The notes beneath the pieces were generated by a model, which saw nothing but the letters and a program-made list of their open reading frames with translations, searched no databases and was not told the origin of the DNA. From positions 1 to 20,188 of IMG/VR virus record IMGVR_UViG_3300048597_000237: DNA of 20,188 nucleotides. The stretch is one strand, 5' to 3'. The translations under genes and the position numbers were made by a program. Source of the stretch: a virus. Of the stretch, positions 346 through 4,305 are shown one piece after another. Within the stretch, counting starts at the first letter, position 1. Each line of letters opens with the position of its first letter.

Positions 346-1112
346 CGCTGGACTTCAACCACACGCGCAGTTTTGCGGAACTGCTCAACGACGCCGTTGA
401 CACAGCCCTGACCGGTGAAAACGCCAAACGGCCGCGCCGCGATTACCTCGGCGGCTCCCGCGTCGGTCATGCCTGCGAACGGGTCCTGCAGTTCGAGTTC
501 GCAGGTGCCCCCAAAGACGATGGCGCAGACTTCCCCGGCCAGACACTGCGCATCTTCGCCATCGGCCATGCGCTCGAGGATCTGGCGATCCAGTGGCTGC
601 GTGCCGCAGGTGTCGACCTCTACACGCGAAAGGGCAACCGCCCCGACGGCGAGCAGTTTGGCTTTGCGGTCGCAGACGGCCGCATCCGCGGCCACGTCGA
701 CGGCATCATTGCTGCTGCCCCCGAGCCGCTGAAACTCGGCGCTCCCGCGCTCTGGGAATGCAAGACCATGAACGCGAAGAACTGGCGCGCCTGCGTCAAG
801 GACGGCGTGGTCGTCTCGAAGCCGGTCTATGCCGCGCAGATTGCGCTCTACCAGGCCTACATGGATGCCAGCGTCCCGGGCCTTGCCTCGAACCCGGCGC
901 TGTTCACCGCGATCAACAAGGACACGGCCGAACTCCATCACGAGCTGGTGCCGTTCAATGCCGAGCTGGCGCAACGCATGAGCGACCGTGCCGTGAGGGT
1001 ACTCTCGGCCACCGATGCCGGCGAGCTTCTGCCGCGCATCGCGCGGGATCGCGGCCACTTCGAGTGCCGGATGTGCGCTTACGCCAACCGCTGCTGGAGC
1101 CTCACCCAATGA
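342..1112 (+). CDS. Cas4/RecB-like PD-(D/E)XK nuclease with Fe-S cysteines
   Basis: This 256-aa protein carries a PD-(D/E)XK nuclease core: Asp120 in VDGIIAA, then Glu139-Cys-Lys141 in LWECKTMN, followed by a YAAQIALYQAYM helix matching the QxxxY motif of the RecB family. Cys45 near the N-terminus and Cys242, Cys245 and Cys251 near the C-terminus are arranged as in Cas4 and AddB nucleases, where one upstream and three downstream cysteines bind a 4Fe-4S cluster. The likely role is DNA end resection in phage recombination or replication; this is inferred from the family. The start is TTG at 342, the only start codon there, with a GGAGG ribosome site just upstream and a 4-base overlap with the preceding gene. 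The stop overlaps the primase-helicase start (ATGA). No CRISPR array or other cas gene is nearby. Confidence 0.9.
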   Translation: MTLDFNHTRSFAELLNDAVDTALTGENAKRPRRDYLGGSRVGHACERVLQFEFAGAPKDDGADFPGQTLRIFAIGHALEDLAIQWLRAAGVDLYTRKGNRPDGEQFGFAVADGRIRGHVDGIIAAAPEPLKLGAPALWECKTMNAKNWRACVKDGVVVSKPVYAAQIALYQAYMDASVPGLASNPALFTAINKDTAELHHELVPFNAELAQRMSDRAVRVLSATDAGELLPRIARDRGHFECRMCAYANRCWSLTQ

Positions 1113-3451
1113 CCGATGAGCGCGAAGACAAGCCCACCGGCGAAGTGATCCACTTCAATCCGTGGCGTGATTTCAATGACGCCGCGCCACAGGACGATCC
1201 GTTCGGCATCGAGCCCGATGCGGACCAACTTGCGACGTTTCTGGATGTGGTCTTCGGCTATTGCGAAGGCCTGATCCCGGTCCGCGGCTTCGTCGACAAG
1301 GGACAGGGCCGCGACGGCAAGCCCAATAACATCTGGATCGAGGCGGATGCCTCGGCCTTCGACAAACTGAAGACCTTTGCCACCTGGGCATGGCGCGAGG
1401 GCGCCGCCCTCTATGTCATCCCCGGCACGGTTGCCGCACAGGGTCAGGCGCGCGCCCATGAGGTCCTGCAGATGCAGGCAATCGTGGTGGATCTCGATGC
1501 AGGCGACATCCCGGGCAAGCTCGCGCATCTGGTTCGCTACCTCGGCACCCCCACGATCACCGTAGAAAGTGGCGGCCGTACGCCCGAGGGCGCCACCAAG
1601 CTCCATGTCTGGTGGAAACTGACCGAGGCGGCGACCGGCCAGGACTTGGCATCCCTCTGCCGTTTGCGCGGCGACATCGCGATGAAGGTGGGCGGCGACA
1701 CACATTTCCGATCGGCGCATCAGCCGATCCGGGTCGCAGGTTCGGTCTATCACAAGGGGGGGTTCCAGCGGCTCGTGCAGATCCGCGACCATCACCCCGT
1801 CGAGGTGGAGCTCGCGGACTTCGCTGAACAGGTTGCAGCCATGCCGGCACTGCCAGGTGTTGGGGTGGAGCCCACGCCTGAAGCCAGCACCAAACCCTCG
1901 CTCGAAGCGATCCTCACGACGCCTGTGCACGAAGGCGGTGCCGATCATTGGACCCGTTTCGAGGGAGCAAGCGCCGCAATCGGTCACTACGTCCGGCTGG
2001 TCCACGACGGCAAGATGACGCCCAACGATGGGTGGGAAGCGATCTGCCAGTACAACGCCGCCATGCTGCGGCCTGCCTGGCCGGCTGAGCGCCTGCAGCA
2101 GGAGGCTGACCGTCTCTGGGCGTTACATGTCCGAAAGAACGGCCCGGCACTGCTGCGCAACGATGCGGACCAAGCCGCATCCCCGGTGACAATGCCGGCG
2201 TATAGGCTGCGCGAGTTGCTTGCCGATAAGTCGCCGATGCCGGACGACATCATCGCGCCGCGTGTCCTGACGCCGGGTGGTCTGTTGGTACTTGGTGGCG
2301 CACCGAAGGTGGGCAAGAGCGACTTCCTCATCAGCCTTCTGGTGCACATGGCAGCCGGTGTGACGTTCCTCGGCTTCACGCCCAACCGAGCTCTCCGCGT
2401 CTACTACCTGCAGGCAGAGATCCAGTATCATTACCTTCGCGAACGGCTCCAGGGCATCAGGCTCGATGCGAGCGTCATTGCGGCAGCGCTCGATAATCTG
2501 ATCGCAACCCCAAAGCTCCGCCTTCTTCTCGATGAGAAAGGTATCGCTCTCGCGGCTGCATCGATTCAGGAACATTTCCCGGACGCGCCTCCCGACATCA
2601 TCTGCATCGACCCGATCCGCAATCTCTTCGATGGCGGCAAGGACGGCGGCGGTGAAAACGACAACGCCGCGATGATGTTTTTCCTCACCGAACGGGTGGA
2701 GCGGCTGCGTGAGACCGTGGCGCCAGACTGCGGCATCATCCTCGCCCATCACACCAAGAAGATGAACCGAAAGGCGGTGCAGGAGGATCCGTTTCAGGCT
2801 CTGTCCGGCGCCAGTGCGCTACGCGGCTTTTACACCTCGGGTCTGCTGATGCACCGCCCCGATGAGGACAGCAGCATGCGCAGGTTGGAGATCGAACTCC
2901 GCAACGGCGCGTCGCTGCCGGCGAAGCTCATCGACAAGGAGAACGGCCGCTGGGTCGAACTCAATCCGATCAACGAGCGGCTGGTGCGCAAGGAAGCGGG
3001 CGCGCGATTTGATGCCGAGCGCTTGCGCAAACGCGACGTCATTCTCGGCATGCTGCTCGATGAAGCCGCCGCCGGACGGTTGTATGTGACGACGCAGTTC
3101 GCCGAGGCCTTCGAGAACCAGGGCGGGCTCGGCAGCAAGCATACCATCCGGGAGCGGATCGGCGTGCTCTCCACCAAGGGCTATGTGAAGTTCGTCCGAG
3201 ACGCGACCACGTTCGGTTTCCCCGCCACCCGCTCCCGCTCCGGCTATCTGTGCGTGGAAGGAATGACCTTCGGTCCTCCCGAGGAGATCACCGACCCGGC
3301 CACCGGCGAGGTCATTTCGACACCGCGTCGGGTGCTGCCCAGCCACTACAAGTGTCCGCAGTCGGGTGCCGTTCTCGCCGTCGAAAATCCCGATGTCTGG
3401 GTCTACCCGGAGGGGTCGGATGACGACCTCTCTCATATGAGCGAGGCATGA
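1109..3451 (+). CDS. Primase-helicase fusion: primase-like N-terminus plus RepA-type AAA ATPase
   Basis: This 780-aa replication protein appears to have three parts. Residues about 40-245 resemble an archaeo-eukaryotic or RepB-like primase domain, with a metal-binding-type Asp128-x-Asp130 (IVVDLDAGD) and a later LHVWW and SAHQPIRVAGS segment. Residues about 375-620 are a RepA/RecA-type ATPase, with Walker A GGAPKVGKS at 396-404, a Walker B strand DIICID ending at Asp501, and LAHHTKK around His547. The remaining 150 residues look like a winged-helix-type DNA-binding tail. The likely job is priming and unwinding at the phage origin. The open frame extends upstream to 593, but the ATG at 1109 overlaps the previous stop (ATGA), and the upstream part is only a shadow of the nuclease gene. 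A palindrome cluster that could serve as its origin follows directly. Confidence 0.88.
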   Translation: MTDEREDKPTGEVIHFNPWRDFNDAAPQDDPFGIEPDADQLATFLDVVFGYCEGLIPVRGFVDKGQGRDGKPNNIWIEADASAFDKLKTFATWAWREGAALYVIPGTVAAQGQARAHEVLQMQAIVVDLDAGDIPGKLAHLVRYLGTPTITVESGGRTPEGATKLHVWWKLTEAATGQDLASLCRLRGDIAMKVGGDTHFRSAHQPIRVAGSVYHKGGFQRLVQIRDHHPVEVELADFAEQVAAMPALPGVGVEPTPEASTKPSLEAILTTPVHEGGADHWTRFEGASAAIGHYVRLVHDGKMTPNDGWEAICQYNAAMLRPAWPAERLQQEADRLWALHVRKNGPALLRNDADQAASPVTMPAYRLRELLADKSPMPDDIIAPRVLTPGGLLVLGGAPKVGKSDFLISLLVHMAAGVTFLGFTPNRALRVYYLQAEIQYHYLRERLQGIRLDASVIAAALDNLIATPKLRLLLDEKGIALAAASIQEHFPDAPPDIICIDPIRNLFDGGKDGGGENDNAAMMFFLTERVERLRETVAPDCGIILAHHTKKMNRKAVQEDPFQALSGASALRGFYTSGLLMHRPDEDSSMRRLEIELRNGASLPAKLIDKENGRWVELNPINERLVRKEAGARFDAERLRKRDVILGMLLDEAAAGRLYVTTQFAEAFENQGGLGSKHTIRERIGVLSTKGYVKFVRDATTFGFPATRSRSGYLCVEGMTFGPPEEITDPATGEVISTPRRVLPSHYKCPQSGAVLAVENPDVWVYPEGSDDDLSHMSEA

Positions 3452-3464
3452 CGTCATATGAGAG
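3430..3464. repeat. Inverted repeat across the primase-helicase stop codon
   Basis: Two 11-base arms, CTCTCATATGA (3430-3440) and TCATATGAGAG (3454-3464), are exact reverse complements separated by 13 bases, and they straddle the TGA stop at 3449-3451. Each arm contains the palindrome TCATATGA; the two copies are spaced 21 bases apart, about two helical turns. There is no T-run after it, so it does not look like a classical terminator. A binding site for a dimeric protein is more likely. Confidence 0.6.
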
Positions 3465-3508
3465 CGGATCGGCACAATCGAACAAAATCAATGGGTTACG
3501 TCTCAAAT

Positions 3509-3530
3509 ATGACAGAGGTGCCTCTGTCAT
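3509..3530. repeat. 22-base palindrome, 10-base arms
   Basis: ATGACAGAGG (3509-3518) and CCTCTGTCAT (3521-3530) are exact reverse complements separated by TG. No poly-T follows in either direction. The short spacer and full symmetry suit a repressor or initiator site better than an RNA hairpin, which would have a two-base loop. Confidence 0.65.
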
Positions 3531-3606
3531 GCCTGACGTCATCCCTCATCATATTTTCGCTGCGAAATCAGCAACTTAGGCAGCCCGGAACAGGAGGGTG
3601 CGAAAG

Positions 3607-3661
3607 CTCCCATACTACGTATGGGAGGGCCAACATGAAGAGTTGGCCCGTCCTCCCATAC
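3607..3661 (+). promoter_or_regulatory. Mutually exclusive hairpins that enclose a ribosome binding site
   Basis: CTCCCATAC occurs at 3607-3615 and again at 3653-3661, and its reverse complement GTATGGGAG lies between them at 3619-3627. The middle copy can therefore pair with either flank. The first option is a 9-bp stem with a 3-base loop. The second is a 16-bp stem (3619-3634 with 3642-3661) with a 7-base loop and one 4-base bulge. Both bury the GGGAGGG at 3623-3629, which sits six bases before an ATG at 3635 that falls in the loop of the larger hairpin. This is the geometry of a switchable RNA element, or of a cruciform at an origin. No T-run follows, so simple intrinsic termination is unlikely. 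Confidence 0.5.
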
Positions 3662-3688
3662 GGTGCGTCACCTCGGGCGCCGCCGTGA
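3635..3688 (+). CDS. Possible 17-aa leader peptide in the hairpin region
   Basis: ATG at 3635 is preceded by an excellent Shine-Dalgarno sequence (GGGAGGG, six-base spacing) and encodes MKSWPVLPYGASPRAPP before a TGA at 3686. A second short frame of 14 codons starts at the overlapping ATG at 3688. Evidence for translation is only the ribosome site and its placement inside the switchable hairpin. It has no recognisable family. The good ribosome site may be chance within a G-rich stem, and I rate this as speculative. Confidence 0.2.
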   Translation: MKSWPVLPYGASPRAPP

Positions 3689-3780
3689 TGATGGCCCGCC
3701 CCAGCGGTGACGTCAGTCCGACACGGACCTGACCAGCACCCCCTGACCATCCCCCATCACCCTTCATGACGGAGACCATC

Positions 3781-4305
3781 ATGGCTTCGAATACCCCAAC
3801 TCTGCCTGTTGTCAGCCCGAGCCCCAAGCCGGGCCATGCGACTGGATCCATCCTCGCCCTCGACCTCGGCACCAGCATGGGCTGGGCGCTCCGGCTCGGC
3901 ACCGAGACCCATAGCGGCACCATGTCCTTCCGCCCCAGCCGCTATGACGGCGGCGGCATGCGCTACGTCCGCTTCCGCCACTGGCTCGATCAGCTGGCTG
4001 TGGCAAGCGAATTGCCCGAGGCCGTCTACTTCGAGGAAGTACGCCGCCACGCCGCGACCGATGCCGCCCATATCTACGGCGGCTTCCTCGCCTGCCTCAC
4101 CGCCTGGTGCGAGGAACGCGGCATCGCCTACCAGGGCGTGCCCGTCGGCACCATCAAGCGGCACGTGGCCGCCAAGGGCAATGCCGACAAGCAGGCCGTG
4201 ATCGACGCTGTGCGCGCCCGCGGCTTCACGCCTGCTGACGACAATGAGGCCGACGCCATCGCCATCCTTCTCTGGGCCATCGAGACCAAGGGAGGCGTGC
4301 TGTGA
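3781..4305 (+). CDS. RuvC-like (RNase H fold) Holliday-junction nuclease
   Basis: This 174-aa protein follows the RuvC layout: Asp28 in ILALDLGTSMGWAL on the first strand, Glu85-Glu86 in VYFEEVRRH, a basic TIKRHVAAKGNADK segment, and a C-terminal acidic cluster ADDNEADAIAI (Asp153, Asp154, Glu156, Asp158) completing the metal site. The length equals bacterial RuvC, and such phage versions resolve branched DNA before packaging; the role here is inferred from that family. The ATG at 3781 is preferred because GGAG lies seven bases upstream. An in-frame ATG at 3766 would add five residues but has no visible ribosome site. The stop overlaps the next gene. It fits a recombination/replication operon with the Fe-S nuclease and primase-helicase upstream. 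Confidence 0.88.
   Translation: MASNTPTLPVVSPSPKPGHATGSILALDLGTSMGWALRLGTETHSGTMSFRPSRYDGGGMRYVRFRHWLDQLAVASELPEAVYFEEVRRHAATDAAHIYGGFLACLTAWCEERGIAYQGVPVGTIKRHVAAKGNADKQAVIDAVRARGFTPADDNEADAIAILLWAIETKGGVL

Follow-up and report, generated by a model that had tools for sequence, protein, structure and literature searches.

A hairpin with two alternative pairings in the probable replication origin of a group of alphaproteobacterial prophages

Downstream of a primase-helicase gene, the virus record analysed here (the window, 20,188 bases) carries a short sequence that can pair with either of two identical copies flanking it, and this locus raises the question of what such an arrangement serves. 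The gene order in the window is as follows: a Cas4-like exonuclease, the primase-helicase, the spacer of interest, a RuvC-like resolvase, DUF6378, a neck gene, a ParB-methyltransferase and the terminase genes. The spacer (3452-3765) extends from the primase-helicase gene (1109..3451, + strand) to the gene of the RuvC-like Holliday junction resolvase (3781..4305, + strand, PHROG 159), for which the tool placed the start at 3766, the ATG at 3781 being also possible. A preliminary description of this DNA had proposed an RNA switch or attenuator over the ribosome site of a very small gene, or alternatively a two-state cruciform at an origin. The comparisons reported below favour a structure for the start of DNA replication over an RNA switch that controls a very small gene.

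Direct reading of the + strand located the first arm, A1 (CTCCCATAC, state 1), at 3607-3615, followed by the loop TAC (3616-3618), by the arm A' (GTATGGGAG, 3619-3627), which is common to both states, and by the arm A2 (3653-3661, state 2), a second copy of A1; the competition of these two copies for A', as previously described, was thereby confirmed. Between A' and A2 lies an inner hairpin B (3627-3649, + strand) with the stem GGGCCAAC/GTTGGCCC, in which 3627-3634 pairs with 3642-3649, and the loop ATGAAGA. The A1:A' stem comprises 9 bp with no mismatch. Pairing A':A2 lengthens to 11 bp (3618-3628/3652-3662) and runs on into stem B, the two together forming a long hairpin with a short bulge on its 3' side. 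Because A' is used in both, states 1 and 2 are mutually exclusive. Folding of 3590-3700 as RNA yielded -52.7 kcal/mol (z -3.5), and none of 200 shuffles did as well. For the 68-nt core, the long hairpin of state 2 was the more stable of the two folds both as RNA (-28.9 against -25.5 kcal/mol for state 1, a gap of 3.4) and as DNA (-17.6 against -14.7 kcal/mol, a gap of 2.9). The A, A', A arrangement exceeds chance: when the spacer was shuffled 2000 times with its dinucleotides preserved, the 9-nt version never arose and a 7-nt version arose once.

The element is widespread among relatives. Its exact pattern, CCCATACNNNGTATGGGAGGG, was found in 87 stretches of viral contigs, and a protein-based search identified 175 loci with adjoining helicase and RuvC-like genes. 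Genome matches were mostly from Rhodobacterales and Hyphomicrobiales, e.g. Paracoccus, Jannaschia, Hyphomicrobium and Devosia. Among 192 distinct helicase-RuvC spacers of alphaproteobacterial prophages, 183 contained a hairpin of A/B architecture, falling into about a dozen sequence families (for example CTCCCATAC-TAC-GTATGGGAG, CCACCCCC-TTC-GGGGGTGG, CCACCCCT-TTC-AGGGGTGG and CCCTATTC-TAC-GAATAGGG) in which B and another copy of A usually come after A1:A'. The INPHARED set yielded no relative nearer than Wolbachia phage WO, in which the spacer measures merely 32 bases. In four loci (L294, L305, L319 and L321) the matched helicase stretch contained one in-frame stop each, which may reflect decay or misassembly of these copies. 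Additionally, in other phages, RuvC-only loci giving no match to this helicase (such as L013, L035 and L069) displayed inverted arrays of repeat words surrounding a GC-rich hairpin that precedes RuvC.

To assess conservation of the pairings, the loop and the end of A2 served as anchors for the arms, because MAFFT had put the 3' arms in wrong places when aligning different families. The count covered 13 distinct combinations at seven stem positions, ten wrong or doubtful hairpin picks having been removed by hand. In this sample, which consists of few families whose related members are not independent, 89 of the 91 cells were paired for A1:A' and 90 for A':A2, the best of 2000 shuffles reaching 87; sliding the arms against each other gave far fewer pairs. 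Position 1 read C-G-C or T-A-T across A1-A'-A2, a triple change, and position 2 read A-T-A, C-G-C or T-A-T. At positions 8-9 the A':A2 pairing was retained more often than A1:A'. Likewise, the letters of inner stem B differ between families and its pairing persists. The architecture is reduced in some groups: family F6 (L023, L052, L053 and L056) and locus L311 possess A1:A' and B and have no A2, and the A1:A' stem of family F7 is short. Within family F1, the heptamer CCCATAC is constant throughout. The covarying pairs show that selection has maintained both pairings in most families. The preliminary description had named a lack of covariation in both stems as grounds for refutation; the comparison did not refute it, and the exclusive stems are conserved with compensatory changes. 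It is worth noting that, on the + strand, the A helices show nine G-T pairs against two A-C mismatches, a hint, from few and related events, that the + strand copy folds, be it RNA or DNA.

The surroundings of the hairpin bear on whether it belongs to the preceding or to the following gene. In 185 distinct spacers, the IHF consensus WATCAANNNNTTR was counted 128 times on the + strand and was absent from the - strand, compared with 0-2 occurrences in shuffles. The window has one exact and one near-consensus site. The first, AATCAATGGGTTA (3486..3498, + strand), lies about 121 bp upstream of the hairpin and is kept in relatives on the + strand only; the second, AATCAGCAACTTA (3566..3578, + strand), is one letter from the consensus and stands at a position, about 42 bp upstream of the hairpin, that recurs in several families. 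Distances between the last IHF-like site and A1 group around two values, about 42 and about 121 bp, regardless of hairpin family or repeat word, whereas the distance between A' and RuvC varies from 72 to 503, an extra reading frame lying between them in some relatives. This combination of fixed and variable spacing indicates that the hairpin is a part of the upstream array rather than a leader of RuvC. In four loci (L003, L090, L105 and L074) the frame inserted between hairpin and RuvC displays CxxC motifs that appear Zn-ribbon-like by eye. Other relatives (such as L128, L058, L025, L035 and L075) possess a second hairpin shortly upstream of the RuvC start, absent from the window, whose stems vary (GACGACGGCGG/CCGCCGTCGTC, GGACGGCAGCC/GGCTGCC and GGACGACGACGG/CCGTCGTCGTCC) around a constant loop, CCGCCAAGNAC. 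It gave no Rfam match in loci of the L008-L128-L058 type and, from its sequence, looks like a putative RNA or protein-binding leader of RuvC.

An element acting at the RNA level was nevertheless considered, in which the spacer would be co-transcribed with the operon and its two RNA folds would control processing, stability or downstream expression. The hairpin does lie on the coding strand of the flanking genes, its RNA fold is significantly stable, and the excess of wobble pairs is as expected if the + copy folds. However, that excess equally fits single-stranded + DNA, and the position of the element is tied to the IHF sites and the helicase end, not to RuvC, from which it is separated by an inserted frame in some relatives. 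A simple scan of the spacer returned no promoter-like or terminator-like site, and no Rfam family matched it. No U tract follows the GC stem, as an intrinsic terminator or attenuator requires, and the attenuator proposed earlier is not supported. A function at the RNA level is consequently judged unlikely.

Still less probable is a DNA operator in which a dimeric protein would recognize three copies of the half-site A, the hairpin potential being a by-product of symmetry. A1 and A' indeed form a perfect palindrome about a 3-bp centre, with A2 as a further copy, and the invariant CCCATAC of family F1 would suit a protein-binding site. However, an operator needs neither the pairing of stem B to hold while its letters change, nor the pairing of A' with A2 at positions 8-9 to be retained where A1 differs, and the predominance of G-T pairs over A-C mismatches at paired sites also argues against it.

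In the CI RNA of phage P4, one segment is complementary to two flanking identical ones (seqA, seqB and seqC). The present element resembles this RNA and the C4 antisense RNA of P1 in that one segment complements two others, and an antisense-RNA immunity with A' as the active segment and A1 and A2 as its targets could be imagined on this ground. It differs from both by its spacing, by the lack of outside targets and by its location after a replication gene. Of 12 large prophage records, 11 had CTCCCATAC only inside the element (once per strand) and the twelfth lacked this sequence; its occurrence nowhere outside the element argues against such targets. Moreover, A1 and A', with three bases between them, would presumably close on each other at once, CCCATAC is unchanged while the repeats vary, and the Rfam search produced no C4 match, all of which leave this immunity a very improbable function. 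As for the regulated 17-codon gene of the preliminary description, its GGGAGGG (3623-3629) and the ATG at 3635 that begins the frame do exist in the window at a ribosome-site spacing, but any ATG at the corresponding place is lacking from all but 5 of 72 distinct related elements, by which the buried-site gene is refuted as a general function and retains practically no chance.

The spacer also contains repeats. The first phage-specific repeats (TCATATGA at 3433-3440 and 3454-3461, TGACGTCA at 3449-3456) overlap the 3' end of the helicase gene; TCATATGA is confined to this area (3433..3461) within the window, and an additional copy of TGACGTCA lies at 3534..3541. A perfect 10-bp palindrome, ATGACAGAGGTGCCTCTGTCAT (3509..3530), is predicted as a likely binding repeat; it sits between both IHF-like sites and differs from the other repeats of the spacer. 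Every lineage has its own repeat word, located partly within the 3' end of the helicase gene, and this word tracks the letters of the recognition helix in the C-terminal winged-helix-like domain of the helicase. Helix GSKHTIRE was associated with ACTCATA or AGTTAGG, GGQTVIRD with CAGATTTC, GGKTGILD with AATCCGG, GGETSIRN with CCGCAA, GGKDTIRD with CCGAAAC and GSQYTIR with CTTTGTC. Over 65 dereplicated loci, and controlling for the helicase core, helix and repeat word were correlated with a partial r of 0.51, a value reached in none of 2000 permutations. Repeat-word cosine was 0.60 for loci with the same helix and divergent cores, against 0.01 for a different helix and similar cores. Covariation of helix and word is thus strongly supported and is the pattern that would be expected of a protein binding these repeats; a part in origin recognition has been proposed for such winged helices in fusions of a related kind (PMC5862659). 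Recognition-helix letters and repeat words may together be regarded as a natural DNA-recognition code of a phage winged helix. In a co-variation test, the hairpin class was tied more closely to the winged-helix type than to the primase domain; this may result from linkage, yet it does not favour an ssi-like reading of the hairpin by the primase domain.

The protein combines an N-terminal archaeo-eukaryotic primase-like domain, a RecA/RepA-like helicase (AAA_25) and the winged-helix-like domain, according to Pfam (AAA_25), PHROG (primase/helicase) and an AlphaFold model of mean pLDDT 69.6, whose domains are better than the whole. Its best PDB structure matches were S-2L PrimPol, RSF1010 RepB' (3h20 and 3h25) and RSF1010 RepA (1g8y). 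Likeness of the primase domain to RepB' is at the fold level (Foldseek E 6e-8 for 3h20 and 1e-6 for 3h25) and includes the complex with initiator DNA. Assignment of a RepA-like hexameric helicase was based on Pfam AAA_25 and on 1g8y (E 1.5e-4, TMt 0.56), one of many RecA-fold matches. A sequence search of the PDB gave no match for the primase-helicase; catalytic-type motifs were kept in 30 sequences of this protein.

Taken as a whole, these sequence comparisons make it very probable that the spacer is a phage DNA replication origin, with the repeats as candidate iterons and with putative IHF sites. The origin location put forward in the preliminary description is thus supported by the IHF-consensus sites, the covariation of repeats and helix, the protein fold and the GC skew. 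The repeat word CATATGA was nearly confined to the origin spot in six large prophage records, as was the IHF consensus in the five of these records that contain it. The detrended GC-skew minimum was no more than 0.7 kb from the element in three of six records and 2-4 kb away in two others; the sixth, with its minimum elsewhere, shows no support, and since the records are related the GC skew supports the origin in part. Both propositions jointly, namely that 3452-3765 is the origin of a temperate phage and that the hairpin is its structured initiation site, are slightly favoured, and the chances of the hairpin being specifically a priming or assembly site appear evenly balanced. An attachment site was also considered and set aside, helicase and RuvC presumably remaining adjacent in integrated prophages.

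Under the origin interpretation, the primase-helicase would bind, through its C-terminal winged helix, the repeats lying next to and within the 3' end of its gene, a prediction to which the covariation lends strong support. IHF, by its consensus and fixed spacing, would bend the array at two sites, the helicase part would open the DNA, as its fold suggests, and the exposed strand could then fold into the A/B hairpin, where the primase part or the assembling complex would land and prime. Pairing of A' with the upstream copy A1 or with the downstream copy A2 would allow local re-pairing. A conserved two-state switch, one state permitting and the other blocking priming or helicase assembly, can be suggested only tentatively. 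If true, initiation would be set by local re-pairing, the ssi-like site would carry its own control, and this phage family would be one whose initiator and iterons shift specificity together. The locus points to a specific, testable origin in a large group of uncharacterised alphaproteobacterial prophages. It also offers a natural experiment, consisting of dozens of winged-helix recognition sequences matched to likely DNA words and of a hairpin whose two pairings both survived selection. The covariation lends support to the published proposal that AEP-helicase fusions recognize the origin with their winged helices, and the idea of a stem-loop origin as in pRN1 becomes testable in phages.

Several known systems share parts of this organization. 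In phage P4, the winged helix of the primase-helicase alpha reads origin repeats (PMC4234260), as proposed here; however, alpha has a Toprim-type primase, unlike the window protein, and the text of that report describes no such hairpin at the P4 origin. In RSF1010 (IncQ), RepC recognizes the iterons, RepA separates the strands and RepB' makes primers at the ssi stem-loops (PMC4234260), and ssiA is a 21-nt hairpin with single-stranded flanks that is read by RepB' (PMC4434180), its length being that of 3607-3627 in the window. Shared with the RSF1010 oriV are iteron-like repeats, a RepA-like helicase fold, a RepB'-like primase fold and a hairpin at the initiation region. By contrast, one fused polypeptide is found here in which the winged helix replaces the separate RepC, none being identified among the genes scanned, and the repeats follow the helicase's own winged helix instead of being bound by RepC. 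IHF-consensus sites, three A arms and two exclusive folds also set apart the present locus, which belongs to a phage and not to a plasmid. RSF1010 has two ssi hairpins, one per strand, with a GTG 3' of the hairpin, whereas here there is one compound element, across whose representatives a GTG start motif in the ssiA-like position was not consistent.

pRN1 depends on a stem-loop that lies downstream of its primase-helicase gene and has a conserved structure and a variable sequence, and phage BIP-1 has been proposed to resemble it (PMC4234260). Likewise, the hairpin described here lies just 3' of a primase-helicase gene and keeps its structure while its letters change, and both replication proteins have a C-terminal winged helix. 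However, pRN1 relies on an SF3 helicase instead of an AAA_25/RepA-like one, and has no iterons and a single long stem bearing a large loop, in contrast to the repeats, IHF-consensus sites and short alternative stems observed here. The present locus combines the arrangements of RSF1010 and pRN1, and is best read as an origin like theirs, yet with all functions probably contained within one polypeptide.
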